From Candidatus Manganitrophaceae bacterium (GTDB taxonomy: Bacteria; Nitrospirota; Nitrospiria; SBBL01; Manganitrophaceae): a stretch of DNA of 64,000 bases. Below the pieces are notes generated by a model that made no database searches, was not told where the DNA came from, and was given only the letters and a program-made list of their open reading frames with translations. Below are positions 37,835 to 54,756 of this stretch, piece after piece. Both the position numbers and the translations under genes were made by a program. How positions within the stretch are numbered: position 1 is the first letter of the stretch; every line of letters begins with the position of its first letter. The stretch covers positions 186,001 through 250,000 of the forward strand of contig JACQEZ010000001.1 of assembly GCA_016200325.1 (NCBI GenBank), read 5' to 3'.

Positions 37835-38047
37835 ATGCAGGTGACCGTAAACGGCGTCCGGCAAGAGATTCCGGCGGAAACAAACATCTTAGAACTGCTT
37901 GCTCAGTTGAACGTCCAGCCCGAACGGGTTGCGGTTGAGATCAATCTTCAGGTAATACATCGCCAGCAATACAATCGCGTTCCCCTGAAAGAGGGGGATC
38001 AGATTGAGATTATCGGTTTCGTGGGGGGAGGAAGTTTATGCCGGTAG
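37835..38047 (+). CDS. thiS: Thiamin sulfur-carrier ThiS with C-terminal tail
   Basis: 70-residue ubiquitin-like carrier of sulfur for the thiazole ring. Begins [16 protein letters not shown] and ends [14 protein letters not shown] at residues 53-66, but four more residues (SLCR) follow the Gly-Gly-Gly. They exist because the reading frame continues into thiG, whose ATG it overlaps by ten bases. To be adenylated, the tail must be removed. No ThiF is next to it; the moeB product at 1771 is one candidate. Confidence 0.93.
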
Positions 38048-38817
38048 ACCGCCCTTTGGTCGTAGGGAATATCGAATTCCGCTCCCGCTTGATTGTGGGA
38101 ACCGGAAAATATAAGTCTTTTGAGGAGACCAAGAAGGCCATTGAGGCTTCCGGCGCGGACTGTGTGACCGTGGCGGTCCGTCGCGTCAATATCTTGGACC
38201 GCGCTCAAGAAAATCTGCTCGATTACCTCGACCCCAAGATTTATAAGATCCTTCCCAACACAGCGGGTTGTTATACGGCCGACGAGGCTGTCCGGACGGC
38301 ACGGCTGGCCCGTGCGGCCGGGATCTCCGACATGGTAAAGTTGGAGGTCATCGGAGACCCCAAGACACTCTTCCCCGACAATGAAGGGCTCCTGGAAGCA
38401 ACCCGGGTTCTGGTCAAAGAGGGGTTCACCGTTCTTCCCTATACAAATGATGACCCGATCATGGCCAGGAAGCTTCAAGATGCGGGCGCGGCGGTGGTGA
38501 TGCCGTTGGCTGCCCCGATCGGATCGGGCTTGGGAATCCGGAACCCCTATAATATTAGGATCATCCTTGAAACGATCTCCGTTCCGATCATCGTCGACGC
38601 GGGGGTGGGAATCGCTTCCGATGCGGCGATTGCGATGGAGCTCGGCTGCGATGGTGTTCTGATGAACACCGCCATCGCCGGTGCGGAGAATCCAATTCAG
38701 ATGGCTGAAGCGATGAATTACGCTGTTCGTGCCGGACGGCTTGCCTATCTGGCGGGGAGAATTCCGAAGAAGCTCTATGCTCAGGCGAGCAGTCCCGTCG
38801 AAGGGATGATCGAGTAG
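38038..38817 (+). CDS. thiG: Thiazole synthase ThiG
   Basis: 259 residues. Condenses deoxyxylulose phosphate, a glycine-derived imine and the sulfur of ThiS thiocarboxylate to form the thiazole phosphate of thiamin. Visible are [15 protein letters not shown], the catalytic-lysine segment [12 protein letters not shown] (Lys101), [14 protein letters not shown] and the phosphate-binding [18 protein letters not shown] and [17 protein letters not shown] at 38038 within the thiS end. ThiH or ThiO is not in the window. Confidence 0.97.
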
Positions 38818-38881
38818 CGCATTTTTTTCTCCTCCTCTTGTTGTTGCGGCGTACCTGTTTCGTTTTGGCTTCAAAAGAGGT

Positions 38882-39520
38882 ATGCCCTCAATCGATTTCA
38901 AAATCTATCTCATCGGTGATCGAACACAAACATCCGGACGTCCCCTGTCTCAAGTGATCCGGGAAGCGGGCCGGGCGGGAATTCGTGCGATTCAGTTTCG
39001 GGAGAAAGACCTCCCGCTGCGCGCTCAACTTCAACTTGCTTCGGAGATCCGCTCGGTCGCCAAACAACAGCGGATGCAGTTTTTTGTAAACGATCGCATC
39101 GACCTCTGCCTTGCGCTCGATGCGGAAGGGATTCATCTTCCCTCGTCGGGACTGCCGGTGGCGGTGGCGCGTGAGATGTTGGGGGGAAGCAAGCGGATCG
39201 GCGTCTCCTGTCACTCTCTGGAAGAGGTTCAGAGAGCCGAATTTGAAGGGGCCGATTTTGCCGTGTTGGGTCCGATCTATGAAACCCCTTCTAAACGTCC
39301 GTATGGTCCTCCGCTGGGAATCGACCTTTTTAGAAAGGTCCGACGTTCCACTGCGATTCCGCTCTTTGCAATCGGCGGCGTGGATCGATTAAGATTGAAA
39401 GAGCTCTTTGAGGCGGGAGCAGATGGCGTCGCGATGATCTCAGCGATTCTTTCTTCCTCCGATGTTTACCAAGCGTCTCAAGCGTTGATCGAGGAAATGG
39501 ATCGACTTCATTGGATTTAG
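38882..39520 (+). CDS. thiE: Thiamin-phosphate synthase ThiE
   Basis: 212-residue TIM barrel joining hydroxymethylpyrimidine diphosphate and thiazole phosphate to thiamin phosphate. IQFREKDLPLR, FVNDRIDLCLALDAEGIHLP, IGVSCHSLEE, DFAVLGPIYETPSK and the phosphate loop FAIGGVDR are the usual ThiE/TenI motifs; TPSK agrees with ThiE more than TenI. Follows thiG after 64 bases and probably shares its promoter. Confidence 0.92.
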   Translation: MPSIDFKIYLIGDRTQTSGRPLSQVIREAGRAGIRAIQFREKDLPLRAQLQLASEIRSVAKQQRMQFFVNDRIDLCLALDAEGIHLPSSGLPVAVAREMLGGSKRIGVSCHSLEEVQRAEFEGADFAVLGPIYETPSKRPYGPPLGIDLFRKVRRSTAIPLFAIGGVDRLRLKELFEAGADGVAMISAILSSSDVYQASQALIEEMDRLHWI

Positions 39521-39627
39521 ATGGACGCAGTGAGCGAAGCGTTCACCGGTGTGTCGATCTGGTTCGAAATTTTTTCTTATCGTGTCTGGTGGCAACAGTG
39601 AAATTGCCCCCGTTCTTGCTCTCGTAG

Positions 39628-39656
39628 TTGACCGTCATAGGAAGAGATGATAAAAT
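39628..39656 (+). promoter_or_regulatory. Promoter of the proteasome operon
   Basis: TTGACC (39628-39633) and TAAAAT (39651-39656) with a 17-base spacer; a start near 39663 would leave a leader of about 55 bases before mpa. It is the only good promoter seen before mpa, and the genes after it have gaps of 36 bases or less up to 47856. Confidence 0.75.
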
Positions 39657-39717
39657 TAGCTCCTGAGAGAAGAGGGAAATTTAACCTTCATGATCTCGGA
39701 GTTTGAGAGGAGCATTG

Positions 39718-41484
39718 ATGGGTGATTCAAAGAAAAATCAGGGGAAGTCGAATCCATTCAAAAATACGATGAAAAGACTCTCCGAGCAGTTTGGTGCCAG
39801 CGATTCAGAGACGAAGGTCATCGAGTACGAACGAGAGATCGAGAAATTGCTCGTTCAAGTTGCATCGATGGAACAGGAGCTGAAAGAGTTACGCCAATCA
39901 CGCACCCAACTGGAGCAGGCTTTCAAGCAGAATGAAAAGCTTGCAGCGGCCCTCGTAGAAGCGAAGAATCAAATCGAGGCGCTGAAAAAAGAGGTGGAGA
40001 AGTTAACGACCCCTCCCTCCAGTTATGCCATCTTCTCCGGGGCGAACGAGGATGGGACCGTCAATGTATTTGTTGCCGGCCGCAAGATGAAGGTGAACGT
40101 CCATCCGAATATTTCAACCCGGGATCTAAAGAGAGGCCAACAGGTCCTCCTCAACGAAGCGCTCAATGCGATCGAAGCATGTGAGTTCGACGTCCAGGGC
40201 GAAGTCGTCCGGATCAAAGATCTCCTCGATGAAAATCGCGCGATCGTGACCCTTCGCGCCGAAGAAGAACGGGTGGTCGAGCTTGCCGATCCGCTGCTGC
40301 GGGGAAGGCTGTCCGTGGGAGATCACCTCCTCTATGATGCGCGCTCCGGCTATGTTTTGGAAAAGCTTCCCAAGTCCGAAGTCGAGGAGGTCGTCCTCGA
40401 AGAGATTCCAGATGTAAACTATGATCATATCGGGGGACTTGAAGAGCAGATCGAATTGGTCCGGGACGCCGTGGAGCTTCCTTTCCTTCATCCCGAACTT
40501 TTTGCCGAGCATAAGCTCCTTCCGCCAAAAGGGATCCTTCTCTATGGACCGCCCGGATGCGGCAAGACCCTGATTGCCAAGGCGGTGGCCGCTTCCATCT
40601 CGAAGAAATTAGGAGACCGCTCTGGGAAGGAAATCCGGAGTTTCTTCCTTCATGTAAAGGGCCCGGAGCTCTTAAATAAATATGTGGGAGAGAGTGAGCG
40701 CCAGATCCGCGAGGTCTTTAAGAAAGCGAAGGAGCGCGCCGAGGCCGGGCATCCGGTTATCGTATTCTTTGATGAGATGGATGCCCTCTTTAGAACAAGG
40801 GGAAGCGGCATCTCATCCGATATGGAAGCGACGATTGTCCCGCAGTTCCTGTCGGAGATTGACGGGGTTGAGCGTCTTCGTAATGTCATCGTTATCGGCG
40901 CCAGCAATCGCCAAGACCTCCTCGATCCGGCCATTTTAAGAGCCGGTCGGCTCGACATTAGAATTAAAATCGAACGGCCCGATAAAAATGCGGCGGTTGC
41001 GATTTTTCATAAATATCTGACCGTAGATCTTCCGTTTCACCCTGAAGAGACGGCAAAGAATGCGGGTGATGTTAAAAAGGTGACGGAGCGTCTGATCCAA
41101 GAATCGGTCGAAGAGATGTATAGCGTCCGTGAAGAGAACAAATTCCTTGAGGCCACCTATGCCAATGGGGAGAAGGAGACATTCTACTTCAAAGACTTCG
41201 CCAGCGGTGCGATGATTGAAGGGGTCGTCTCCAGGGCGAAGAAGCATGCAATTAAACGGATGCTCGACACCGGGGTGAAAGGGCTTAAGCAAGAGGATCT
41301 CACCCGCGCGATCAGGGATGAATTTAAAGAGAACGAAGATCTTCCGAATACAACCAATCCGGATGATTGGGCGAAGATCGCCGGCCGGAAGAGCGAGAAG
41401 ATTATTCATATCCGTACCATGGCCGGAAGGGCAGCCGCCGATTCCAAAAAGATCGAAACAGTGACCACAGGACACTACCTATGA
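39718..41484 (+). CDS. mpa: Proteasome-activating AAA ATPase (Mpa/ARC)
   Basis: 588 residues from ATG 39718 with GAGAGGAG six bases upstream. It recognises Pup-tagged proteins, unfolds them and feeds the 20S proteasome. N-terminal coiled coil (about 30-97) that binds Pup, tandem OB domains (about 100-225), AAA module with Walker A GPPGCGKT (277-284), Walker B VIVFFDEMD (347-355) and the C-terminal GHYL (585-588), whose penultimate tyrosine docks on the proteasome alpha ring (M. tuberculosis ends QYL). All parts needed for a working unfoldase are present. Confidence 0.97.
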   Translation: MGDSKKNQGKSNPFKNTMKRLSEQFGASDSETKVIEYEREIEKLLVQVASMEQELKELRQSRTQLEQAFKQNEKLAAALVEAKNQIEALKKEVEKLTTPPSSYAIFSGANEDGTVNVFVAGRKMKVNVHPNISTRDLKRGQQVLLNEALNAIEACEFDVQGEVVRIKDLLDENRAIVTLRAEEERVVELADPLLRGRLSVGDHLLYDARSGYVLEKLPKSEVEEVVLEEIPDVNYDHIGGLEEQIELVRDAVELPFLHPELFAEHKLLPPKGILLYGPPGCGKTLIAKAVAASISKKLGDRSGKEIRSFFLHVKGPELLNKYVGESERQIREVFKKAKERAEAGHPVIVFFDEMDALFRTRGSGISSDMEATIVPQFLSEIDGVERLRNVIVIGASNRQDLLDPAILRAGRLDIRIKIERPDKNAAVAIFHKYLTVDLPFHPEETAKNAGDVKKVTERLIQESVEEMYSVREENKFLEATYANGEKETFYFKDFASGAMIEGVVSRAKKHAIKRMLDTGVKGLKQEDLTRAIRDEFKENEDLPNTTNPDDWAKIAGRKSEKIIHIRTMAGRAAADSKKIETVTTGHYL

Positions 41485-41519
41485 CCGGGTGAGCAGCAGC
41501 TATCGGAGGCCTCAGATCA

Positions 41520-42995
41520 ATGAAGAGAATACTGGGTACTGAAACTGAGTTTGGAATCGCCTCCAAAAACTCTGAATCAATTGATCCTGTTTCGAACTCC
41601 ATTTTCCTGGTCAACAGCTATCCCTATCTCCCCTCTTCTTCCGTGCTTTGGGACTACGAGAATGAAAACCCGCTTCTAGATGCGCGTGGTTTTGAAGCCG
41701 ACGGGGAGAGAGAGCGGCCCGGTCCGGAATATAATCGCCTTCTTAACAAGCTCCTTCCAAATGGAGGCCGTCTCTATGTGGACGGAGCACACCCCGAGTA
41801 TTCGACCCCAGAATGTACGAACGCCAGAGATCTGGTTGCCTTTGAAAAAGCGGGTGAGCGAATTTTAGAAGCCTGTCTTGAAATGGCAAGCCGGTTGAAG
41901 CCGGGCGAGAGTCGCTTCTCCATCTATAAGAATAACACCGACAGCAAGGGGAATAGCTACGGCTACCACGAAAATTATCTGGTCTCGCGGGAGCTCCCCT
42001 TTGAGAAAATTGTCGCGCAACTCACCCCTTTTTTCGTAACCCGCCAGGTCTTTGCCGGCGCCGGGAAGGTCGGCTCCGAAAACAAGACCGAAGCGGCGTC
42101 CTATCAAATCTCCCAGCGGGCCGATTTTTTCGAGGTGTGGGTTGACTTAAATACGATGGTCAAGCGGCCGATCATCAATACGCGCGACGAACCGCATGCG
42201 GATAGCAGCAAGTACCGTCGGCTCCATGTGATCGTCGGCGATGCCAATATGTCGGAGTTTACGACCTATCTTAAGGTCGGCACAACCTCTCTTGTTCTGG
42301 CGATGGTAGAAGAAGGACGAGAGGTCGAAGGGGTTGAGCTGGAGAATCCGGTCCGCGCAATCAAAGAGATTTCGCGTGATCTGACGCTGAAGAAAAAGAT
42401 AAAGCTTTTGAAAGGAGCGGAGTGGAGCGCCATTGAGATTCAGCGCGCCTATCTCGAGCAGGCTGAGATCCACTATGCGAAGAGCGACGATTCGGTGACC
42501 CGAGATCTCCTTGAGAAGTGGCGGATGGTGCTGGATAAGCTGCAGGAGGACCCGATGCAGCTCTCCCGGCATATTGACTGGGTCATTAAAAAAGAACTTA
42601 TTGAATCGTATATCCAACGCAAGGGATGTGATTGGAGAGATCCCCGTGTTTCAATGATGGACCTTCAATATCACGATGTAACCCAGGCGAAGGGACTTTA
42701 TTATGCGCTCGAACGCGGAAACTATGTAGAGCGTCTGATCACGAATGAGATTATCGCGGAAGCCCAGAATACGCCCCCGACCGATACGCGGGCCTTTTTC
42801 CGTGGGACCTGTCTTAAGAAGTTTCCGAAAGAGGTTTATGCCGCCAGCTGGAGCTCGATCTTATTTGATATCGGAAACAGCACGGTTAAGAAGGTTCCTC
42901 TGTTAGATCCGCTGAAGGGGAGTCAAGCCTTGGTCGGGCCTCTTTTAGAGGGAGCAAGGACCGCAGAGGAGCTGCTCGCCATTATTGCAACGTAA
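41520..42995 (+). CDS. dop: Deamidase/depupylase Dop
   Basis: 491 residues, glutamine-synthetase-like fold. GTETEFG (Glu8, Glu10) opens the ATP/metal site, Asp88 (VDGAHPEYSTPE) matches the catalytic aspartate, and between them lies the Dop-specific loop (about 46-76, DYENENPLLDARGFEADG) that is absent from PafA. Dop removes Pup from substrates and, where Pup ends in Gln, deamidates it. Here Pup already ends in Glu, so depupylation would be its main task. ATG 41520 is 10 bases after GGAGG; 35 bases after mpa. Confidence 0.96.
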   Translation: MKRILGTETEFGIASKNSESIDPVSNSIFLVNSYPYLPSSSVLWDYENENPLLDARGFEADGERERPGPEYNRLLNKLLPNGGRLYVDGAHPEYSTPECTNARDLVAFEKAGERILEACLEMASRLKPGESRFSIYKNNTDSKGNSYGYHENYLVSRELPFEKIVAQLTPFFVTRQVFAGAGKVGSENKTEAASYQISQRADFFEVWVDLNTMVKRPIINTRDEPHADSSKYRRLHVIVGDANMSEFTTYLKVGTTSLVLAMVEEGREVEGVELENPVRAIKEISRDLTLKKKIKLLKGAEWSAIEIQRAYLEQAEIHYAKSDDSVTRDLLEKWRMVLDKLQEDPMQLSRHIDWVIKKELIESYIQRKGCDWRDPRVSMMDLQYHDVTQAKGLYYALERGNYVERLITNEIIAEAQNTPPTDTRAFFRGTCLKKFPKEVYAASWSSILFDIGNSTVKKVPLLDPLKGSQALVGPLLEGARTAEELLAIIAT

Positions 42996-43006
42996 GGGGG
43001 TTTCCA

Positions 43007-43207
43007 ATGGCAAAACAGGAAAAAAAGAAAGAGAAGAAAAAAGAGTCGGATAAGAAAGAGGAAGCGGTTACTGCAAATCCGGAAGTAGTCGATAAGGGTA
43101 AAAAAATTAAGGAAGATCTTGACAAGCTCATGGATGAGATCGATGACGTTCTTGAAGAAAACGCAGAGGAATTCGTTAAAAATTATGTGCAAAAGGGAGG
43201 AGAATAG
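43007..43207 (+). CDS. pup: Prokaryotic ubiquitin-like protein Pup
   Basis: 66 residues, mostly disordered. The C-terminal half contains DEIDDVLEENAEEFVKNYVQ followed by KGGE, almost identical to actinobacterial Pup (M. tuberculosis DDVLEENAEDFVRAYVQKGGQ minus a few changes). The terminal residue is Glu, encoded GAA before the TAG, so it can be ligated by PafA directly. The N-terminus is unusually lysine-rich: 11 of the first 20 residues are Lys. It lies between dop and prcB, 11 bases after dop and overlapping the prcB GTG by one base. This is Pup, not the UBact type described from some other Nitrospirota. Confidence 0.96.
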   Translation: MAKQEKKKEKKKESDKKEEAVTANPEVVDKGKKIKEDLDKLMDEIDDVLEENAEEFVKNYVQKGGE

Positions 43208-44004
43208 TGTCGGAGTTCCGATTTCACGATCCGGGTCCCAGCTTCTATCAGCTATTGACGTCACAGCACCCTCAACTTTTGTCTTCGCTCCCAGGCCTTC
43301 TTCCATCTGAAAAAAAAGATTTATCGCAGATGCTCCCACACGGTACAACCGTTTTAGCCCTACGCTACCGGGATGGGGTCGTCATTGCGGGCGATCGAAT
43401 GGCCACGGAAGGTTATTCCGTCTCGGAGCGCCGGATTGAAAAGGTGCACAATTCCGATAAGTACTCCGCCATTGCCATTGCCGGCGCCGCCGGTCCTGCC
43501 TTGGAACTGACGCGTCTTTTTCGGATTGAATTAGAGCATTATGAAAAATTGGAAGGGGCGGAGCTGTCACTGGAAGGAAAGGCGAATAAGCTGTCGCAAA
43601 TGATCAAGGGTAATCTTCCGATGGCGATGCAGGGGTTGGTAGTGATTCCGATTTTTGCAGGGTATGACATTCGTCGCAACGTCGGCCGGATATTTAAATA
43701 TGATATCGCCGGCGGCCAATATGAAGAGATCGAATATTATGCAATCGGCTCCGGCGGAAGAGATGCGCGTGGAACCTTAAAAAAGATTTATAGCAAAGAC
43801 GCCGACCAAGACGGCGCCATCCGTGCCGCGTTGGAAGCATTGTACGATGCGTCCGAAGCCGATATCGCAACGGGGGGGCCTGATCTGATTCGAGGCATTT
43901 TCCCGACCGTAAAGGCGATCAGCGCGCAAGGTATCAGCGATATCTCGGATGCGGAGATCAAGCAGCTGCTCCAGGAGATGATTCAACGACAAGGGGGAGG
44001 ATAG
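43207..44004 (+). CDS. prcB: Proteasome beta subunit PrcB
   Basis: 265 residues. Ntn hydrolase with a 46-residue propeptide ending LPHG; autocleavage exposes Thr47 (TTVLALRYRDGVVIAGDR), the catalytic nucleophile, and the supporting Asp63 and Lys-equivalent lie in the following strands. GAAGPALELTRLF and YAIGSGGRDARGTLKK are typical of the family. GTG at 43207 has GGGAGG six bases upstream. Three bases separate it from prcA. Forms the inner rings of the 20S core. Confidence 0.96.
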   Translation: MSEFRFHDPGPSFYQLLTSQHPQLLSSLPGLLPSEKKDLSQMLPHGTTVLALRYRDGVVIAGDRMATEGYSVSERRIEKVHNSDKYSAIAIAGAAGPALELTRLFRIELEHYEKLEGAELSLEGKANKLSQMIKGNLPMAMQGLVVIPIFAGYDIRRNVGRIFKYDIAGGQYEEIEYYAIGSGGRDARGTLKKIYSKDADQDGAIRAALEALYDASEADIATGGPDLIRGIFPTVKAISAQGISDISDAEIKQLLQEMIQRQGGG

Positions 44005-44007
44005 CCG

Positions 44008-44688
44008 GTGGCAATGCCATACTATGTTTCACCTGAACAGGTGATGCAGGACAAAGCGGAGTATGCCAGAAAGGGCATTTCCAGAGGAAGATCGATTGTT
44101 GCGATGGAGTACGATCAAGGTATTTTGCTGGTCGCCGATAACCCAAGCTCCCTGAGCAAGATTTCCGAGATTTACGATAAAATCGCCTTCGCCGGGGCGG
44201 GCAAATATAGCGAGTTTGAAAATCTCCGGAAAGCGGGCATCCGCCATGCCGACATGAAAGGATATCTCTATAGCCGCGAGGATGTCACTGCGAAATCGCT
44301 GGCCAATTCCTACTCTCAATCGCTCGGTACGATTTTCAGCCAAGAGATGAAGCCGCTGGAGGTAGAGATTCTGGTGGTAGAGGTCGGGAGGGAGAGCGCG
44401 GGAAATGAGATGTATCGGATCTCGTTTGACGGAAGTATCTTCGATGAAAAAGGATTCACCGCGATTGGGGGGAAATCGGAGGCCCTGATCCTTCATTTGA
44501 AGAATCAATACCGTCGCGCTTCTTTAAAGGACGCGCTGCAACTTTCCGTCGAGGCGATTGAATCGGCCTACAATCAGACGACGAGCCCCGCGGGCTTAGA
44601 GGTCGCGACGTTGGATCGCGGGCGTCCCGGCCGGATGTTCCGGCGGCTTGGAGCAAAAGAATTGACGGAGCTGCTACAGAAAGAATAA
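44008..44688 (+). CDS. prcA: Proteasome alpha subunit PrcA
   Basis: 226 residues. Outer ring subunit of the 20S core; it lacks a catalytic threonine and carries the gating N-terminus, here MAMPYYVSPEQVMQDKAEYARKG. The family motifs GRSIVAMEYDQGILLVADN, KIAFAGAGKYSEFENLRKAGI and GSIFDEKGFTAIGGKSEAL are present. GTG at 44008 follows GGAGG by six bases. Six bases separate it from pafA. Confidence 0.96.
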   Translation: MAMPYYVSPEQVMQDKAEYARKGISRGRSIVAMEYDQGILLVADNPSSLSKISEIYDKIAFAGAGKYSEFENLRKAGIRHADMKGYLYSREDVTAKSLANSYSQSLGTIFSQEMKPLEVEILVVEVGRESAGNEMYRISFDGSIFDEKGFTAIGGKSEALILHLKNQYRRASLKDALQLSVEAIESAYNQTTSPAGLEVATLDRGRPGRMFRRLGAKELTELLQKE

Positions 44689-44694
44689 GGACGA

Positions 44695-46065
44695 ATGAAA
44701 AACCGAATTTTTGGTCTTGAAAACGAGTATGGATTGATCTTCTCCCCGAATGGAAAGGTCTATCTTCCGATGGAGAAGATCTTGGGCTATATTTTTGAAG
44801 GGTTGATCCCCAACAGCTGGCCGTCCAACGCCTTCTTGGTGAACGGGGCCCGTTTCTATCAAGACACCGGTTGTCATCCGGAGTATTCCACTCCGGAATG
44901 TGATAATATTTTTGACTTGGTGGTGCACGACAAAGCCGGAGAGCGGCTCCTGGAGTCGTGTCTTCCCATCGCGGAAAAGCGACTGAAGGAGGAGGGACTC
45001 TCCGGGGAGATTTACATCTTTAAAAATAACACCGACTCAATGGGAAACACCTATGGCTGCCATGAGAATTACCTCATGCGGCGCGATCTTGATTTTTGGA
45101 AGGTCACAGAACAGCTGATTCCCTTCTTCGTGACCCGGCAGATCTACAGCGGCTCCGGTAAGGTCCTGAAGGTCTCCGGAAAAAGCCACTACTTCATCTC
45201 GCAGCGGGCGCAACATATTCATGAGAAGACCTCGTCGTCGACGACCTCCTCCAGGAGCATCATCAACACGCGGGATGAGCCGCATGCCGATGCCGAAAAA
45301 TACCGCCGCCTCCATATCATCGTCGGCGACTCCAATATGTCGGAGTATGCAACCTATCTCAAGGTCGGAACGACGGCGCTGGTCCTCTCGATGATTGAAG
45401 AGGGCTTCAACGTCGTCGGATTGGAGCTGGAAGATCCGGTGAAGGCGATGCGGGAGATCTCGCGCGATCTGACCCTAAAAAAGCGGGTTCGCTTGGAAGG
45501 GGGAAAAGAGATGACTGCGATCGAGATCCAGCGGATCTACCTGGAGAAGGCGAAAGAGTATGTCGCTTCGGAAGATGAAGATGAGGTCAGCTACGATATT
45601 TTGGAGCGATGGGAGTATGTGCTCAACGAGCTTGAAGAAGATCCGAGCCGCCTTTCGCGCGAGCTCGACTGGGTCATCAAGAGAGAGCTGATCAGCTCTT
45701 ACATGGATCGGAAGGGGTGCGGCTGGGATGACCCGCGGGTGGCGATGATGGACCTTCAATATCATGATGTTAATCAAAGCCGCGGGCTTTATTCACTCTT
45801 GTGCCGCCAAGATATGGTGGAGCGGATTGCGACCGAGGAAGATATTCAACGTGCTGTCCAAAATCCGCCGCAGACGACCCGCGCAAAAGTCCGGGGCGAT
45901 TTTATCCGGTTTGCCAAAGAAAAGAACCGCTCCTACACCGTCGATTGGACTTACCTGAAATTGAATGGATACTGGGAAGAGACGATCCTCTGCATGGATC
46001 CATTCTGCTCCGCCAACCAGCGTGTAAAGGAACTCATTGCCGCCGCATCGCCTCCCAGCAAATAG
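44695..46065 (+). CDS. pafA: Pup-protein ligase PafA
   Basis: 456 residues. Uses ATP to join the C-terminal Glu of Pup to lysines on target proteins. FGLENEYGL (Glu9) and QDTGCHPEYSTPEC with Asp57, the catalytic base, are conserved, as are IFKNNTDSMGNTYGCHENYL, INTRDEPHADAEKYRRLHI and DLQYHDVNQSRGLY. The Dop-type loop is absent, which separates it from the paralogue at 41520. ATG at 44695. Confidence 0.97.
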   Translation: MKNRIFGLENEYGLIFSPNGKVYLPMEKILGYIFEGLIPNSWPSNAFLVNGARFYQDTGCHPEYSTPECDNIFDLVVHDKAGERLLESCLPIAEKRLKEEGLSGEIYIFKNNTDSMGNTYGCHENYLMRRDLDFWKVTEQLIPFFVTRQIYSGSGKVLKVSGKSHYFISQRAQHIHEKTSSSTTSSRSIINTRDEPHADAEKYRRLHIIVGDSNMSEYATYLKVGTTALVLSMIEEGFNVVGLELEDPVKAMREISRDLTLKKRVRLEGGKEMTAIEIQRIYLEKAKEYVASEDEDEVSYDILERWEYVLNELEEDPSRLSRELDWVIKRELISSYMDRKGCGWDDPRVAMMDLQYHDVNQSRGLYSLLCRQDMVERIATEEDIQRAVQNPPQTTRAKVRGDFIRFAKEKNRSYTVDWTYLKLNGYWEETILCMDPFCSANQRVKELIAAASPPSK

Positions 46066-46930
46066 TCCGATCGGGACGTTTATCCTCCGCCTCTTAGTTA
46101 TTATTTCCCTCTGTTCCACCCCGCTCACGGTAGTATCCCAAGCCGATGAGGCGACCCCGATTCAGGTCAAGCAGGGGGACATCGCCTATCTAACGCTTAA
46201 ACTGGAACCGGAAGTCCAATCGGTCAGGGGGAAATTCTTAAACGAGTCAATTCCCTTTTTTAAAAAGGGAGAAGGTGAATTCGCCGCCATCATCGGGATT
46301 GACCTCGCCCAAGCGGTCGGTCCGCAACCCCTCTCAGTGACCTGGAAAAAAGGGGGATCGATCGGAACCGAAAAGTATCTCCTCCATATTGTCCCCGCCT
46401 CCTTCGGGACGGAGAAGCTGACCCTTCCGAAGAAAATGGTCGATCTCGATCCGCCAACGCTGGCAAGGGTGGAGCGGGAGAAGCAACAGATGCTGACCCT
46501 CTTCGATACGAGCGCCGGGCAGCGGTTGTGGGAGGGGGATTTCGTTGTGCCGACCGAGGGAAAAATTCGGGGGAGCTTCGGCCAAAGCCGGATCATGAAT
46601 GGGCAGCCGCGGAATCCCCATACCGGCGAAGATATCAGCGCCCCGCTCGGCGCCCCGGTATTGGCATCAAACGGAGGGAAGGTCATCATGGTCGGCGACT
46701 ACTATTTCAATGGAAATTCGATTGTCATCGATCACGGCCTCGGCCTTTTTAGCATGTACTTTCACCTTTCCAAGATTGCCGTGAAGGAAGGGGATCAGGT
46801 CGTCAAAGGCCAGACGATCGGCTCCGTCGGCCAGTCCGGTCGGGCGACCGGCCCGCATCTGCATTGGGGGATGCGGCTCAACGGCGCTCGGGTCAATCCG
46901 TTCTCTTTGGTAGAGAAGAAGCTCGGCTGA
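46037..46930 (+). CDS. M23-family metallopeptidase (LytM/peptidoglycan endopeptidase)
   Basis: 297 residues from a TTG at 46037, which sits inside the pafA end (29-base overlap) and has AAAGGAA about five bases upstream. A signal-like hydrophobic segment (about 16-33) is followed by a beta domain and an M23 catalytic domain with HTGED (His195, Asp199) and HLH (His274, His276), all zinc and catalytic residues present. Such enzymes cut peptide bridges in peptidoglycan. Its frame overlap with pafA places it in the proteasome operon; a functional link is not known. Confidence 0.92.
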   Translation: MPPHRLPANSPIGTFILRLLVIISLCSTPLTVVSQADEATPIQVKQGDIAYLTLKLEPEVQSVRGKFLNESIPFFKKGEGEFAAIIGIDLAQAVGPQPLSVTWKKGGSIGTEKYLLHIVPASFGTEKLTLPKKMVDLDPPTLARVEREKQQMLTLFDTSAGQRLWEGDFVVPTEGKIRGSFGQSRIMNGQPRNPHTGEDISAPLGAPVLASNGGKVIMVGDYYFNGNSIVIDHGLGLFSMYFHLSKIAVKEGDQVVKGQTIGSVGQSGRATGPHLHWGMRLNGARVNPFSLVEKKLG

Positions 46931-46962
46931 ATCGGAAGATTCTCCGCCTTGCAGGAGTGAAG

Positions 46963-47523
46963 ATGCGCGAAAGTGGCATTCCTGAAAATCATCCTCTCCG
47001 TCTTTATTTTCTCATTTTGACGGAAAAGAATTTTCATCAAAAATTAAATTGGGCCGATCCTTTCGTCAGCGAGTATATCTCGAACCTGCTTCTCTATTTC
47101 ACCCGGACCGACGCGCTTTATGCCATCCGAAACAGCCAAGAAAGCCGGGTCGATACAGTTGCGGAAATGTTGATGGAAGGAGATCTGATGCTTCATGCCA
47201 AGACGATCGAGCGGGAGTGGGAGGTCCACCGCCACATCGGCGATTATACCCTGTTCATGAGCGGTCTTTTCCCGGAGTATTTAAAGCGGATTCAAATGGA
47301 TCAGAGCATCGTCCACCCTGATTTCTTGCTCGATTACGTTCGGATCGGAAAGCGGTCGTATCGGCGGGCGGCCGAATTCGACTATGGCCGCTTTAAAAAG
47401 TGGACCCTGCTCTACAAAAAGCTCGCTGAAAACTTTGAAATGTGCATCGCCGGTTTGGGATTGATTAAAGAGGAGTTGGAACGGACGCGAGAATGGCAGT
47501 TCAAAAAGCAAATTCTAAGCTGA
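46963..47523 (+). CDS. Unknown helical protein in the proteasome operon
   Basis: 186 residues from ATG 46963, with AGGAG seven bases upstream (an in-frame earlier ATG lacks a site). Sequence is rich in aromatic and charged residues, predicted mainly alpha-helical, no signal peptide and no membrane segment. I do not recognise a family. It begins RESGIPENHPLRLYFLI and ends LERTREWQFKKQILS. It lies between the M23 gene and the PilZ gene with short gaps, so is probably co-transcribed with the proteasome genes. Its function is unknown. Confidence 0.85.
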   Translation: MRESGIPENHPLRLYFLILTEKNFHQKLNWADPFVSEYISNLLLYFTRTDALYAIRNSQESRVDTVAEMLMEGDLMLHAKTIEREWEVHRHIGDYTLFMSGLFPEYLKRIQMDQSIVHPDFLLDYVRIGKRSYRRAAEFDYGRFKKWTLLYKKLAENFEMCIAGLGLIKEELERTREWQFKKQILS

Positions 47524-47526
47524 TCC

Positions 47527-47856
47527 ATGGAAAAAAGACAAAAGCAGCGTACGCTGAAGAGATTGTTCGTCCGGTTCGGCAACGAAAAACCGGAGCATAT
47601 CGGATTTACGCATGACCTCTCCGCAACCGGCATCTTCTTAAAGACCAACACCGTTTTTCCTCCCAATACCCGTCTTCAAATAGAGTTGACCCTGCCGGAC
47701 GAAACGGTCCTCTGCTGCCGCGGCATTGTCATGTGGGCAAAGCGCATTCCCCCTGCCTTAAATCGGATGGTCCAAAAACATGGAATGGGGGTCCGCCTTC
47801 TTGAAATTCCGGAGGCTTATAAAGCGCTGATCGATCGGCTCAATATTAAGTTGTAA
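47527..47856 (+). CDS. PilZ-domain protein
   Basis: 109 residues, a single PilZ domain. The c-di-GMP-binding RxxxR is present as RLFVR (about 12-16) and the second motif as DLSATGIF (about 29-36). The rest (FPPNTRLQIELTLPDE, CCRGIVMWAKRI) is the usual beta barrel. Likely binds cyclic di-GMP; the output partner is unknown. Three bases after the unknown protein, so the last gene of the proteasome operon; it meets the minus-strand SurA-like gene head to head at its end. Confidence 0.9.
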   Translation: MEKRQKQRTLKRLFVRFGNEKPEHIGFTHDLSATGIFLKTNTVFPPNTRLQIELTLPDETVLCCRGIVMWAKRIPPALNRMVQKHGMGVRLLEIPEAYKALIDRLNIKL

Positions 47857-47884
47857 GCGTGTTGAAGCTGAGCCCGCGGGAAAA

Positions 47885-48562
47885 TTAGAGGAGTTCTTCT
47901 TTTACGTTGATTGAGGCTTTTTGCCTCAAGGCGAGAGTGTAGCCGTTCAGCGCGCGTTGCTTCTTTTGGAAGAGAAGATCCGAGGCGGCACGGTCGGGAT
48001 CGGGGTTCGCGGGGTTGCTCTTTTTCGCTTCTTCCTCTTCGGTCGGGGTTAAAGCGACCGACTCTTTCACCAATGTCTTTGCTTTGTCGATCAGGAGCTC
48101 TTCCCGGTGTTGCCGTTCGAACCCTTCGGGGCTATAATGCTCGAGGGCGAGGACGCGGCGATAGAGGTCGGAATCAAATTTCCCCTCTTTTTGAAATCCG
48201 GGAAGCTGCGTAATCGATCGTTTCAGCTCTTCATCGCTGACCGCCAACTTCATCTGTTGAGCCTCGCGAAGCCAGAGCTTCCGATCGACCAGCTCATCGA
48301 TGACCCGTTTTCGGAGGTCTTTGTCATCATATTTGTCCTGAAAGATTTCCCGGTAAAAATTGGACGCATTCTGATAGGCGCGATGATATTCTTCAAGGTG
48401 AATCGGCGTGCGATCGACCTGGGCGATGGTGTTCTCGTTTTCATGACCTCCGCCGAATCCAACCCAGCCCATCGTCACAGTGAACGCAACCGCCAGTCCC
48501 CCCATAATGATCCGGAAGAACCAAGGATTTTCAATGGCCCCTTTTCGAATGACTTTCAGCAT
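47885..48562 (-). CDS. SurA/PpiD N-terminal-domain protein without PPIase domain
   Basis: 225 residues: basic N-terminus, one membrane helix (about 14-33), then a SurA_N-type helical domain (AQVDRTPIHLEEYHRAYQN, DDKDLRKRVIDELVDRKLWLREA and EELKRSITQLPGFQKEGKF). PpiD and SurA go on with parvulin PPIase domains; here the protein ends soon after, with a charged tail. It may be a chaperone of periplasmic or membrane-associated folding that relies on helix contacts alone. Convergent with the PilZ gene; start ATG 48562. Confidence 0.85.
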   Translation of the reverse strand: MLKVIRKGAIENPWFFRIIMGGLAVAFTVTMGWVGFGGGHENENTIAQVDRTPIHLEEYHRAYQNASNFYREIFQDKYDDKDLRKRVIDELVDRKLWLREAQQMKLAVSDEELKRSITQLPGFQKEGKFDSDLYRRVLALEHYSPEGFERQHREELLIDKAKTLVKESVALTPTEEEEAKKSNPANPDPDRAASDLLFQKKQRALNGYTLALRQKASINVKEELL

Positions 48563-48648
48563 TTCTCCTCCTGTTTGCGGGGGTCAGCATAACACCAGAT
48601 CTTCAAAAAAGCAACCTGATCCGCTTGATCACAATCACGACAATTTTC

Positions 48649-48676
48649 TTGAAACAATTTTTTTTTAAGTTATAAT
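48649..48676 (+). promoter_or_regulatory. Promoter before the RDD/mre gene run
   Basis: TTGAAA (48649-48654) and perfect TATAAT (48671-48676) with a 16-base spacer, about 17 bases before the RDD start, so a short leader. Confidence 0.7.
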
Positions 48677-48692
48677 CATCTATTTATGGCGA

Positions 48693-49175
48693 ATGATGGC
48701 TGAACGAAAGGTCCTTGGGTTGACGGAGCAGGACGAGGAGGTCGCCGGTCCTTGGGTTTATCCCAAAGCAAGCGTGCTTCATCGGGTGATCGCTAAATTT
48801 CTCGACTTTTTGATCATCGCCGCCATTTATGAAATTCCGCTTCGAGTCTCCTTCTTGGGCGGACTTTTCTACCTTTTAATCGCAGACGGTTTTGCCGAGG
48901 GGAGGAGCGTCGGAAAGCAGCTGATCGGTCTTCAAGCGATCACACCGACCACTCGGAAGAAGGCCTCCTTCAAAGAATCGATCATCCGCAATTTCCCACT
49001 GGCGATCGCCTATTTGATTTTTTACCTTCCTTATATCGGTTGGCTCTTTTCATCGATGATCGTCGGATTCGAATTGCTCTTAATGATTGGGAATCCCAAA
49101 GGGTTGCGTGTCGGAGATGAATTGGCCAAAACGCAGGTGCTCGACTATACTGTATTCGAATCCTTAGAAAAATAG
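48693..49175 (+). CDS. RDD-family membrane protein
   Basis: 160 residues. RDD proteins have an N-terminal RD in the first helix; here FLDFLII (about residues 36-42) follows VYPKASVLHRVIAK, with later helices (about 50-65, 96-115, 120-135). The DGFAEGRSVGKQLIGLQAI motif of the family is at about 64-82. Function of RDD proteins is unclear, often thought to be transport or membrane-related. It directly precedes mreB. Confidence 0.88.
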   Translation: MMAERKVLGLTEQDEEVAGPWVYPKASVLHRVIAKFLDFLIIAAIYEIPLRVSFLGGLFYLLIADGFAEGRSVGKQLIGLQAITPTTRKKASFKESIIRNFPLAIAYLIFYLPYIGWLFSSMIVGFELLLMIGNPKGLRVGDELAKTQVLDYTVFESLEK

Positions 49176-49181
49176 TTTTGA

Positions 49182-50240
<1,059 letters not shown>

Positions 50241-50301
50241 GCTGAAAGGTTTTCATGGTCATGGCAGCAGGCCTAATAAAAGGGTATTTCAGGAACACTC
50301 C

Positions 50302-51165
50302 GTGATTTCACGAATAGGTCGACGCATGATTCGTCGGAGAAGTATCTACAAGCGCTTCCTCGTCCTCTCCTTTGTCCTCGGCTTGACGATCATTTTCATC
50401 TCACCCGAACTCCAGAAGAAACCGCTCCGGTGGCTGGAAATTCCCATCGGCGGGCTCGTCTACTACGTTCAGAATGGGACGTCCTCGGTCTTGAACGGCG
50501 TCGGCGGAATTTGGAAGGGCTATGTCGGCCTCATTCATGTTCGGGAAGAGAATGAGCGTCTTCGGATAGAGATGGATCGGCTTCGGGGAGAGAACAATCA
50601 ACTGAAGGAAGACGGCGCGTTGGCCCAACGGCTTCAATCGATTTTAAATTATAAACAGAGTGTGCCGGTCGGCATGGTCACCGCGGGGGTGATCGGTCGA
50701 GAGCCGACCCACTGGTATCGAAGTGTGATCATCAATAAAGGCGATGCCGACGGGATCAAAGTCGATATGGGGGTCATCACCCCGCAAGGGGTGGTGGGGA
50801 AGATCATCAAGACCGGACCCCATCATGCCCAGGTTCTTTTGATGACCGATCGAAGCAGCGCCGTCGCCGCCGTGGTTCAGCGCACCCGCGATGAGGGGAT
50901 CGTCCAGGGGATGGAGGAGGGGACGCTTCGGCTGAAGTACCTTCCTCATTTTTCGGAGGTCACGGTGGGAGATGCGGTCGTTACCTCCGGCTTGGAGGGG
51001 AGTTTTATAAAAGGGCTGAAGATCGGTGAGATCGAGAAGGTCGAGAAGAAAGAACATGAGCTCTTTCTTCAGGTTAAATTGGCCCCCCAGATCGATTTTG
51101 GGAAATTGGAAGAGGTCTTGATCATCACCTCTACCGCCGAGAAGGGCGGGAAAGCGGGTTCTTAA
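50302..51165 (+). CDS. mreC: Rod-shape-determining protein MreC
   Basis: 287 residues: short cytoplasmic part, membrane helix (about 18-34), periplasmic coiled coil (about 62-98, REENERLRIEMDRLRGENNQLKE) and two beta-barrel domains with the MreC signature GVVGKIIKTGPHHAQVLLMTD. Bitopic scaffold that activates PBP2/RodA. GTG at 50302 has AGGA about 7 bases upstream; ATG 50326 is possible. Confidence 0.95.
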   Translation: MISRIGRRMIRRRSIYKRFLVLSFVLGLTIIFISPELQKKPLRWLEIPIGGLVYYVQNGTSSVLNGVGGIWKGYVGLIHVREENERLRIEMDRLRGENNQLKEDGALAQRLQSILNYKQSVPVGMVTAGVIGREPTHWYRSVIINKGDADGIKVDMGVITPQGVVGKIIKTGPHHAQVLLMTDRSSAVAAVVQRTRDEGIVQGMEEGTLRLKYLPHFSEVTVGDAVVTSGLEGSFIKGLKIGEIEKVEKKEHELFLQVKLAPQIDFGKLEEVLIITSTAEKGGKAGS

Positions 51166-51219
51166 GATGCCGCGGAGCAGTCCGAATCGAACCGACCTGG
51201 AAAAGGAAACCGGGCTAAA

Positions 51220-51756
51220 ATGAGATGGCTCTCCCGAATCGTCATTTTCCTCCTATTAATCCCGGCGCAGACCCTTCTGCTGGAGCAGATCAAGATCGGC
51301 GGGATTAAGCCGGACCTGGCTTTGATTCTCGTCTATTGCTTCGGCTGGGCCGGCGGTGAGGTACGCGGACTCCTGTGGGGGGTCGCTTTGGGAGGGCTCG
51401 TCGATTTTTTTTCGATCGGCCTGTTGAGCGTCAATTTTTTTTTAAAAATGGTCATCGGTTTCACGGTCGGGATGTTGGGGAGGTCTTTACTCAACCTCTC
51501 TTTTTTGTGGAATACCCTGATTTTCTTTTTCGTCTCGATCCTTCATGATCTCCTCGGCACGCTGATCATCGAAGGGGTGGGCGAAGGGGGTCTCTTTCCG
51601 ATGATTCATCGCGAGATGATCGGAAGGGCATTTTATAATTCTTTCTTTGCGGCCGGTCTGTTATTTCTCTTTGCAAAGAGAAGGGCTGAGAAAGGGACAA
51701 TCGATCATGCGGGAATCCTATTTACCCCAGGAGGAAACCCGGGATCTGCAGACTAG
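51220..51756 (+). CDS. mreD: Rod-shape-determining protein MreD
   Basis: 178-residue hydrophobic protein with about five or six membrane helices. The family's weak signature LKPDLALILVYCFGWAGGE-type helix and GLVDFFSIGLLSVNFF are visible. Ends inside the mrdA gene: 50 bases overlap, which suggests coupled translation. Identified by topology and by its position between mreC and mrdA. Confidence 0.9.
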   Translation: MRWLSRIVIFLLLIPAQTLLLEQIKIGGIKPDLALILVYCFGWAGGEVRGLLWGVALGGLVDFFSIGLLSVNFFLKMVIGFTVGMLGRSLLNLSFLWNTLIFFFVSILHDLLGTLIIEGVGEGGLFPMIHREMIGRAFYNSFFAAGLLFLFAKRRAEKGTIDHAGILFTPGGNPGSAD

Positions 51757-53590
51757 GATCTATTGGCTCTTCGGCCTGATCATTTTAGCCTTGTTCGGTC
51801 TTCTCCTCCGCGCTTGGTATCTGCAGATCGTCAAGGGAAAGTTCTACCTTGAAATGTCCGAGAACAACCGGATGCGGGTGGTGGAGACCCCTCCTCCCCG
51901 CGGCCTCATCTACGATCGGAACGGAAACCTCCTCGTCAACAACGTCCCGAGCTTCAACCTCTATGTCGTTCTCGGCGACATGCCGAATCAGTCGCACGTC
52001 CTTCCCCGTCTCGCCACTCTGATCGGCATGTCGGAAGAGGAGCTGAAGCGCCGCGTCACGATCAAAAAAGAAGATCCCTTTTTTCCGATCAAAATAAAAG
52101 ATGACCTTACGATGCGTGAAGTGGCGGTGGTCGAGGGGCATGGATTGGACCTCCCCGGCGTGAAGATCGAGGCCGAATTCAAACGAAACGCGATCTACGG
52201 GACGCTGGCGGCCCACCTGCTCGGCTATGTCGGAGAGATCTCCCAGGTGCAGATGGAATCTCACAACTATTCCGAGATCGGCCGGGGGGCGATCATCGGC
52301 CAATATGGGATTGAACAGACCTTCGATTCGATTATCCGGGGGACTCCCGGGCAGAAGGGGATTGAAGTCGATGCGCTGGGCCACGAAATACGCGTGCTGA
52401 AGGTGAAAGAGCCGATGCGCGGAGATGATATTTTCTTGTCGCTCGACCTCAACCTCCAAAAAGTCTCCGAGGAGGCGCTTGGTTTGCAGAGCGGGGCGAT
52501 CGTCGCGATGGACCCGAAGAACGGCGACATTCTTGCCATGGTGAGTCACCCCGCCTTTAATCCGAATCTTCTCTCCCAGGGGGCGAGCTCCCGCGCCTGG
52601 GATGCCCTTCTCAAAGATGAGGGGCGGCCGCTGACCAACCGGATCATCCACGGGCAATACCCTCCCGGATCGACCTTCAAAATCGTCATGAGCGCCGCGC
52701 TCTTGGAGACGAAAGAGGTGACCCCCGCGAACCGGATCGAATGCCGTGGTTTTCTCCCCTTTGGAAACAGGCATTTTAAAGACTGGAAAAAAGGGGGGCA
52801 TGGGTCGGTGGACCTCTACCGGGCAATGGTCGAGTCGTGCGACGTCTATTATTACGAGATGGGAAATCGGCTCGGAATCGATACGATCGCGAGATTCTCG
52901 CATCTCTTCGGTTTGGGACAGCCGACCGGGGTGGAGCTCTCCTCGGAGAAGGGGGGCTTGATCCCGAGCACCGACTGGAAGCGGCAGGTTCGGAAAGAGC
53001 CGTGGTATCCGGGGGAGACCCTCTCCGTTTCGATCGGACAGGGGTATGTCACGGTGACGCCGCTTCAGCAGGCGATGATGATCAGCACCGTCGCCAGCTC
53101 CGGGGTGCTCCATCAGCCGAAACTGCTCAGGAAGATCCGGGATCAGGAAACCGGATCGGTCCAAGAGGTTCCGACCCCTGAGGGAAAACGAATTCCGGTT
53201 TCGGCCGAAACCTTTCGCGTGATCCAGAACGCCTTGGCCGGGGTCGTCTCCGAACCGCATGGGACCGCCTATGGATCAAGATCGAAATTCGTTTCGATGG
53301 GAGGAAAAACCGGAACCGCCCAGGTGATCGGAATGAAGGGGGGTGTCCATGGAAAGCTTCCCGACAAGTTCAACGACCATGCTTGGTTCGTCGCCTTCGC
53401 GCCGGTGGAAGATCCAAAGATTGCAGTCGTGGTCCTGGTGGAAAATGGGGGTCATGGCGGGTCGGCGGCTGCGCCGCTCGCTAGAAAAGTCATCGAGGGG
53501 TATCTCAACGTGGTTCCTCCGGGAACCTCTCCCGACTCGATAACGGTCAAAAGCCCGGCGCCCGTTCCGTCGATTCCGGATGAGGGTTAA
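51707..53590 (+). CDS. mrdA: Elongasome transpeptidase PBP2
   Basis: 627 residues from ATG 51707, inside the mreD end, after AAAGGG. Class B PBP cross-linking side-wall peptidoglycan with RodA. Membrane anchor (about 18-38), dimerisation domain from TPPPRGLIYDRNGNLLV, transpeptidase domain with STFK at 322-325, SCD at 377-379 (the SxD form typical of PBP2) and KTG at 534-536. Part of the mre operon, distinct from FtsI at 6232. Confidence 0.97.
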   Translation: MRESYLPQEETRDLQTRIYWLFGLIILALFGLLLRAWYLQIVKGKFYLEMSENNRMRVVETPPPRGLIYDRNGNLLVNNVPSFNLYVVLGDMPNQSHVLPRLATLIGMSEEELKRRVTIKKEDPFFPIKIKDDLTMREVAVVEGHGLDLPGVKIEAEFKRNAIYGTLAAHLLGYVGEISQVQMESHNYSEIGRGAIIGQYGIEQTFDSIIRGTPGQKGIEVDALGHEIRVLKVKEPMRGDDIFLSLDLNLQKVSEEALGLQSGAIVAMDPKNGDILAMVSHPAFNPNLLSQGASSRAWDALLKDEGRPLTNRIIHGQYPPGSTFKIVMSAALLETKEVTPANRIECRGFLPFGNRHFKDWKKGGHGSVDLYRAMVESCDVYYYEMGNRLGIDTIARFSHLFGLGQPTGVELSSEKGGLIPSTDWKRQVRKEPWYPGETLSVSIGQGYVTVTPLQQAMMISTVASSGVLHQPKLLRKIRDQETGSVQEVPTPEGKRIPVSAETFRVIQNALAGVVSEPHGTAYGSRSKFVSMGGKTGTAQVIGMKGGVHGKLPDKFNDHAWFVAFAPVEDPKIAVVVLVENGGHGGSAAAPLARKVIEGYLNVVPPGTSPDSITVKSPAPVPSIPDEG

Positions 53591-53640
53591 GGCGATCGAC
53601 GTCGGCGAACGGTTTTTAGAACGCTTGAAAGGAAATTCGA

Positions 53641-54756
53641 ATGATTGATCGGAGAAGCATCGCCGGTTATGATTGGCTCCTCTTTGTGGTGGTCATTCTG
53701 ATCTTGGGAATGGGGGTCCTCTCGATTTACAGCGTCACCTTTGCGCCCGCCGCGATGCGGACACCCCTTTATATCAAGCAGGTTTACTGGATTGTGCTCG
53801 GCTGGGTGGTCTTCCTGGTGATGGCCTGGATCGACTACCACGAAATTGCACGGTTTGCCTATCCGATCTATGCCGTGACGGTCGTCTTGCTGCTGGCGGT
53901 GTTGGTCATGGGACGCAGCGCCCAGGGGGCGCAGCGATGGCTTTCCCTCGGTTTTATGTCGATCCAGCCGTCGGAGCTGGCGAAGATCAGCCTCCTGCTC
54001 GTCTCGGCAAAATATTTCTCCGATTATTATCCCAAGAGAGGGTTGAATTTCAGGCAGCTGCTGCTGCCGGGAGGGCTCGTCCTCTTTCCGATGCTGCTTA
54101 TCTTAAAGCAGCCCGATCTCGGCACCGCCCTGGCGGTCTCCTCCGTCTTCTTCGCCATGGTGCTGGTGATCGGCTTCCGATCCAAATTCTTGATCTACTC
54201 GTCGCTTCTCTCACTGATGATGTTTCCCTTCCTCTGGCAATTTTTTTGGAATCATCTGAAGGACTATCAACGCGAGCGGCTTCGAACCTTTATCGATCCG
54301 ACCAACGACCCGATGGGAACCGGCTACCATATCATTCAGTCGAAGATTGCGGTCGGATCGGGGGGGCTTTTTGGAAAGGGCCTCTTTGGGGGAACGCAGA
54401 GCCAGCTGAAATTTCTGCCGGAGAGCCACACCGATTTTATCTTCTCTGTTTTCTCCGAAGAGTGGGGATTTGTCGGGATCGTCGTCCTCTTTGTCCTCTT
54501 TTTCTTCTTGGTCCTTTGGGGAATTGAGATCGCCTACAAGGCGAAGGATGCGTTGGGATCGCTTCTGGCCGTCGGCGTTGTCGGATTGATTTCGTTCTAC
54601 TTTCTGGTCAATGTCGGAATGACGCTGGGGGTCATGCCGGTCGTCGGCGTTCCCCTTCCGCTGATGAGCTATGGGGGAACATCGATGGTCACCACCATGG
54701 GCTTGCTTGGCCTTCTTTTCAATGTTAAATTAAGACGATTTATGCTATTTTATTAG
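53641..54756 (+). CDS. rodA: Rod-shape SEDS polymerase RodA
   Basis: 371 residues, SEDS family with about ten membrane helices. Polymerises lipid II with PBP2 along the side wall. Motifs: YSVTFAPAAMRTP, IQPSELAKISLLL, KQPDLGTALAVSS, DPTNDPMGTGYHIIQSKIAVGSGGLFGKGL, PESHTDFIFSVFSEEWGF and PLMSYGGTSMV. Presence in the mre operon separates it from ftsW at 13583. Confidence 0.96.
   Translation: MIDRRSIAGYDWLLFVVVILILGMGVLSIYSVTFAPAAMRTPLYIKQVYWIVLGWVVFLVMAWIDYHEIARFAYPIYAVTVVLLLAVLVMGRSAQGAQRWLSLGFMSIQPSELAKISLLLVSAKYFSDYYPKRGLNFRQLLLPGGLVLFPMLLILKQPDLGTALAVSSVFFAMVLVIGFRSKFLIYSSLLSLMMFPFLWQFFWNHLKDYQRERLRTFIDPTNDPMGTGYHIIQSKIAVGSGGLFGKGLFGGTQSQLKFLPESHTDFIFSVFSEEWGFVGIVVLFVLFFFLVLWGIEIAYKAKDALGSLLAVGVVGLISFYFLVNVGMTLGVMPVVGVPLPLMSYGGTSMVTTMGLLGLLFNVKLRRFMLFY

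Follow-up and report, generated by a model that had tools for sequence, protein, structure and literature searches.

An M23 peptidase gene directly behind pafA of the Pup-proteasome operon in a Candidatus Manganitrophaceae bacterium and nearly all its sampled relatives in the class Nitrospiria

The window analysed here (64,000 nucleotides of contig JACQEZ010000001.1; G000:C1:186001-250000, where G, L and C numbers label genomes, loci and contigs and f numbers label families) comes from the 4.2 Mb genome of a Candidatus Manganitrophaceae bacterium and carries a complete Pup-proteasome operon, whose six proteins all exceed their NCBIfam cut-offs and are encoded in order on one strand. These are the proteasomal ATPase mpa/arc (39703..41484, + strand; TIGR03689, 735.9 bits, cut-off 504.75), the depupylase/deamidase dop (41520..42995, +; TIGR03688, 583.3 bits, cut-off 492.3), pup itself (43007..43207, +; PF05639, E = 1.1e-21; TIGR03687, 64 bits, cut-off 41.45), the proteasome beta and alpha subunits prcB (43207..44004, +; TIGR03690, 311.1 bits, cut-off 191.9) and prcA (44008..44688, +; TIGR03691, 308.5 bits, cut-off 139.05), and the Pup ligase pafA (44695..46065, +; TIGR03686, 572 bits, cut-off 551.3). 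Three further genes follow on the same strand, namely an M23 (LytM-type) peptidase (46037..46930, +; PF01551, E = 9.5e-32), an all-helical protein of 186 residues from an undescribed family with no Pfam or NCBIfam entry, here called U186 (46963..47523, +), and a PilZ-domain protein (47527..47856, +; PF07238, E = 1.1e-11). The M23 gene starts by TTG inside pafA, overlapping the last 29 bases of that gene (which ends at 46065), and the next two gaps are 32 and 3 bases; an earlier note on this DNA had given the gene content, coordinates, start codon and gaps exactly so. A convergent gene for a SurA_N-type protein (47885..48562, - strand; PF13624, E = 4.4e-39) forms the right-hand border of the block, so that the full order reads ThiG-ThiE, Mpa, Dop, Pup, PrcB, PrcA, PafA, M23, U186, PilZ, SurA_N, RDD, MreB/MreC, with the ThiG, ThiE, MreB and MreC labels putative.

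M23, U186 and PilZ differ from their counterparts at three loci of the same genus (L083, L184, L185) mostly at third codon positions, the counts for U186 at first, second and third positions being 31/16/78, 27/18/73 and 26/20/75, and amino acid identities are 67-71% for M23, 79-80% for U186 and 72-77% for PilZ; the numbers for a fourth genus locus (L209) are identical to those of L083, and the two probably belong to one genome. At the three loci pafA and M23 overlap by 26 bases and the U186-PilZ gap is 3 bases each time, with the M23-U186 gap varying (30, 42 and 96 bases). U186 and PilZ are adjacent in all six genus genomes, that of the window included, and M23 precedes them in five; in the sixth the locus is cut off by the start of the contig. 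The third-position differences, the constant 3-base gap and the recurrent TTG described below indicate that none of the three is a chance reading frame and that all are real genes whose order is conserved. The M23, MreB and SurA frames are fragmented at L082 and L186 (Manganitrophus GAC4 and a twin), possibly through sequencing errors.

Peptidase family M23 is defined by the catalytic motifs HxxxD and HxH. Both are present in the window protein, the domain of which scores 109.5 bits against a Pfam cut-off of 28.7, placing it in the family, and residues H195, D199, H243, H274 and H276 are invariant in all 25 M23 sequences compared (window included). The nearest solved relatives are PDB 2hsi (E = 4.3e-46) and the 6jmx series (E = 4e-38), the latter a structure of Pgp3. 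The nearest NCBIfam family is also Pgp3 (NF052530; E = 8.5e-56, residues 38-294), but at 189 bits against a cut-off of 300 the protein is a relative and was not filed as Pgp3. Its N terminus, judged by eye, resembles a signal peptide, and the product is probably a peptidoglycan endopeptidase. A single-sequence structure prediction of the protein (predicted local distance difference test, pLDDT, 31.2) was discarded.

Our comparison of the pafA-M23 junction covered 31 rows, two of which (L032 and L084) are from one genome. A start codon lies ahead of the PafA stop in 23 of them. It is TTG at -26/-29 in all four f1 rows, all four f2 rows, one of two f7 rows and the row of f44. The row of f13, all five of f5 and one each of f6 and f8 have ATG at -4, and the remainder have other starts. 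The recurrence of TTG at -26/-29, preceded 5-6 bases upstream by AGGA or GGAGG in eight of the ten rows that have it, supports TTG as the start of M23. Judging from these junctions, a start inside pafA is the rule in the class without being universal, and M23 probably forms the tail of the Pup-proteasome operon, coupled to pafA in translation.

The placement of M23 extends across nearly the whole class Nitrospiria. Using a threshold of E <= 1e-40, 94 of the 98 class genomes have an M23 relative, and in 91 of these 94 the gene closes the proteasome cassette. For 81 the placement was taken from distance, pafA not being read individually, with M23 lying 3177-4820 bases past a same-strand Pup-ligase match, which corresponds to the dop-to-M23 spacing of the window. 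Among the remaining 13, pafA was read directly upstream of M23 in ten, the contig ends in two (G102, G312), and one is a true exception (G183, f3), which has no pafA there and M23 behind a response-regulator-like gene (labelled by eye). The 91 genomes span 12 families (f1, f2, f4-f10, f13, f44, f45), and four further genomes of f11 and f12 that show the pafA-M23 pair bring the number to 14. In G403 (f4; L198, L225, L244) pafA and M23 share one contig, and Mpa-Dop-Pup-PrcB-PrcA lie on a second one, where pafA is absent from the approximately 15 kb downstream of them. The cassettes of f5, f6, f11 and f12 lack pup between dop and prcB at all 11 loci read and still have M23 in place, the pup gene of f5, f6 and f12 being found away from the cassette (6/6 Pup loci read; L169-L174 vs L188-L195 and L230-L232). 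The pafA-M23 order is of long standing in the class.

This constancy could mean that a wall hydrolase is expressed together with pupylation and the proteasome under selection throughout the class, for example so that remodelling of the envelope and turnover of proteins increase jointly in stasis or starvation. The 91/94 adjacency, the starts ahead of the PafA stop in 23/31 rows, the joining of pafA and M23 in G403 with the rest of the cassette elsewhere, and the retention of the pair at the 11 loci where pup has left the cassette all speak for such a functional coupling. Against it, M23 is present in 113 of 232 genomes outside the class (other Nitrospirota in our phylum set of 395 genomes), and 92 of these 113 carriers have no Pup match, so M23 does not depend on the proteasome; at the five outside Pup loci read (f14 twice, f21, f22, f26) no M23 stands by pafA, and thiamine genes flank most cassettes read on the side away from M23, so that the block also holds genes without evident link to proteolysis. 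We consider selected coupling unlikely.

The thiamine genes raise a different possibility, that M23 tends to sit at the tails of thiamine operons and that the cassette came to occupy the same spot, making the two neighbours by history. In f15, M23 follows a thiH-thiG-thiE-thiC run at all three loci read and none of the five f15 genomes has a Pup-ligase match, and thiG-thiE stands ahead of the proteasome in most cassettes read, those of f14 and f21 among them, which have no M23 at that place. In the M23 tree, however, f15 nests among rows of f21, and none of the three f21 M23 loci read is near thi genes, which makes the arrangement in f15 look like an attachment of its own to a thi operon rather than the ancestral state; several cassettes, moreover, have no thi genes within reach (e.g. 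three of four f2 loci). One f14 row (G011, of unusual letter make-up) also falls within the class part of the tree, at a weakly supported position, and the class is therefore not one clean clade there. An inherited thi-locus position is possible, but we regard it as doubtful.

A candidate promoter for the cassette lies ahead of mpa (39628..39656, + strand), a TTGACC-17-TAAAAT site with TG before the second hexamer that agrees with the consensus at 10 of 12 positions; such matches are no evidence of function, with 13 promoter-like sites in the region against 5.8 expected. Weak forward sites of the same kind occur inside mpa (40936), M23 (46661) and U186 (47017), and the scan found none on the forward strand between 40964 and 46661. 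Forward terminator-like sites fall within mpa (40619) and where prcA begins (44008), and none was found in 46000-47900. The scan gave seven terminator-like sites against 11.7 expected, and single hits of either kind mean little. Read-through from the cassette into M23 and beyond is therefore plausible on these scans, and the common proteasome promoter that the earlier note had supposed for the three genes fits them to that extent.

U186 gave no significant match in Pfam or NCBIfam, its sequence profile reached no better than E = 0.12 against the PDB, and a Pfam search over 22 relatives returned five families, each by one member only (best E = 0.053); tblastn against plasmids found no match. 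An AlphaFold2 prediction was helical with a mean pLDDT of 80.8, the five models ranging from 50.7, and Foldseek found no PDB match at E <= 0.001. The family thus stays unrecognised, as the earlier note had it, and the structure prediction it called for yields a helical model. The best VIA-align hit (Z 7.0, root-mean-square deviation 3.0 over 88 residues) lies within the range that the tool gives as usual for helical models, and no function was drawn from generic matches of this kind (Z 7.0 or less). The protein is well conserved: H10, R13, Y38, E85, G93, D94, G129 and Y133 are invariant across 29 diverse sequences, H89 and H91 are kept in 28 of 29, and the family shows the pattern HPLR...HIGD..LF...FP...G..SY. 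These invariant residues indicate a conserved functional site, possibly around E85/H89/D94. Named relatives include Candidatus Manganitrophus GAC4 and a Manganitrophaceae metagenome-assembled genome, whose U186 sequences are 81% and 79% identical.

Matches to U186 occur in 165 of the 395 phylum genomes, 142/163 in the class and 23/232 outside it; one outside carrier (G007, E = 1e-4) is unmatched by the U186 profile, so these 23 may be 22. The gene comes after M23 in f1, f7 and f13, and also in f10, where a ThiD-like gene separates the two. Its neighbours in f5 and f6 are instead MurJ, MGMT, DTD and asparaginase-type genes, as they are at 73 of the 80 named loci, a set that holds the best 80 of 423 and many Nitrospira; the other seven are by the proteasome. 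The titles of these best 80 of 423 are of Nitrospira, Nitrospirae or Nitrospiria kin or of Manganitrophus, except two given as 'uncultured Nitrosospira sp.'.

The position after M23 in f1, f7, f10 and f13 is what would speak for U186 as a proteasome adaptor, activator or Pup-pathway factor, and the earlier note had proposed it as a possible adaptor or target for Pup. Co-occurrence with the Pup system does not bear the adaptor role out. The 21 of 163 class genomes without U186 all have a Pup match and include all eight order-mates sampled, and outside the class, where 23 genomes match U186 and 26 match Pup, only one matches both, leaving 22 of 23 carriers without Pup; that one (G034, f26) is 77% complete, carries U186 on a contig of 6.8 kb and may have been mis-binned. 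In Nitrospira and its kin the gene is unlinked to the cassette. A GQYL-type docking tail is a feature of known proteasome activators; Mpa here ends GHYL, and U186 has no GQYL or HbYX-type C terminus, ending KKQILS, with its class relatives mostly ending LN and three outside rows GGTE or GGTG. Its absence from Pup-bearing order-mates and its presence without Pup make a dedicated Pup adaptor unlikely, and a proteasomal role of any of these kinds seems to us highly improbable. U186 appears rather to be a conserved cytosolic housekeeping protein.

The PilZ protein has the sequence features of a c-di-GMP (cyclic di-GMP) receptor. RxxxR and (D/N)xSxxG are the c-di-GMP binding motifs of PilZ, and the protein has RxxxR at 8-12 and DxSxxG at 30-35, both kept in all eight aligned sequences, with PF07238 over its cut-off; it falls below that of TIGR02266 (49.6 vs 68.7 bits). 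Relatives (E <= 1e-8) occur in 20 of the 98 class genomes and stand behind U186 in seven, six of the genus and G360 (f13), while in G368 (f7) PilZ is beside ThiG at the opposite end of the cassette. The distribution points to a weak link to the proteasome.

The block thiG-thiE-proteasome-M23-(U186)-(PilZ)-SurA-RDD-mreB-mreC (window 38038-51165) is collinear in f1, f7 and f13 loci, although gene-finding returned no RDD match in the f13 locus. In part of the class, genes of the proteasome and of cell shape have long lain side by side.

M23, U186 and PilZ are all conserved genes, but not one unit. We think it probable that M23 is the long-standing last gene of the proteasome operon, with U186 and PilZ as passengers. 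On this account M23 would be read through from the operon and translationally coupled to pafA, and its product, exported by a putative signal peptide, would act in the periplasm of growing cells and open the peptide cross-links of peptidoglycan, in the manner of related M23 enzymes. Since the proteasome is cytosolic, the likeliest link between the two is shared expression or inherited position rather than physical partnership. U186 and PilZ would be passengers between the proteasome operon and the mre shape genes, U186 carrying out a housekeeping task of its own with or without a proteasome and PilZ acting as an ordinary, predicted c-di-GMP receptor. That they are dispensable beside the cassette is indicated by SurA directly following M23 at two of four f2 loci and the f44 locus, and by the order-mates that have Pup and no U186. 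The earlier view of three genes appended to the proteasome operon thus stands nearly class-wide for M23 and weakens for the other two, and conservation of the order in Nitrospirota holds for M23, partly for U186 (f1, f7, f10, f13), and poorly for PilZ (the genus and one f13 genome).

Several observations sit uneasily with this account. Four of the 98 class genomes (G406, G018, G185, G206) have no M23 at E <= 1e-40; 8 of the 31 junction rows (six of seven f10, f9, one f8) have no start before the PafA stop, the first start among them falling 5 to 29 bases past it; and three of these eight rows, all of f10, have no ATG, GTG or TTG in the open frame. U186 follows M23 in four families (f1, f7, f10, f13), so it is not a one-off passenger, and M23 has kept its place behind pafA in 14 families, also in pup-less cassettes, which is more than mere inertia would lead one to expect and could reflect a functional tie. 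At its furthest, such a tie would join pupylation and an exported peptidoglycan endopeptidase into one regulatory unit of this class, in which translation of pafA sets the dose of the wall enzyme and so matches protein turnover to wall growth, with a c-di-GMP receptor as a further part in some families; this we hold to be very unlikely. The roles of Gram-negative proteasomes are poorly known, and the nearly class-wide pafA-M23 pair offers a testable lead to a possible coordination of wall remodelling with expression of the proteasome, in a group of bacteria with nitrite oxidisers and, probably, manganese oxidisers among them. U186 is defined here as an unnamed conserved family and should not be annotated as proteasomal from its position at this locus.

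The same genome holds a second, divergent proteasome operon, Mpa2-Dop2-UBact-PrcB2-PrcA2-PafA2 (G000:C18, approximately 47605-54181; L200:5605-12181). Its five large proteins are below the Pup-system NCBIfam cut-offs, and the small gene between dop2 and prcB2 (L200:8971-9138) is UBact (PF20513, E = 2.5e-18). The operon is of the UBact type, a known system that is named in PMC11354881, and was therefore not counted as new. Pup and UBact systems coexist in this genome, and 64 of the 98 class genomes have four Pup-ligase matches.

A search of the open-access literature, outside which most subscription journals lie, returned no paper joining proteasome, M23 and Nitrospira and none on a Manganitrophus proteasome. 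Compared with known PilZ c-di-GMP receptors, the window PilZ shares both motifs and differs only in its place and its score below TIGR02266. The window M23 likewise shares the catalytic HxxxD and HxH with M23 proteins of the Pgp3 kind (NF052530, 6jmx) and with 2hsi, stays below the Pgp3 cut-off, and differs in its genomic place behind pafA. Pup loci, including that of Leptospirillum, have been described (PMC3511204; PMC2588565), and the bacterial Pup-proteasome locus of actinobacteria and Leptospirillum has, as far as the accessible sections of these papers go, the same order Mpa/Arc-Dop-Pup-PrcB-PrcA-PafA and no mention of an M23 gene. What sets the locus described here apart from it is the M23 peptidase gene directly behind pafA, an arrangement that is nearly class-wide.

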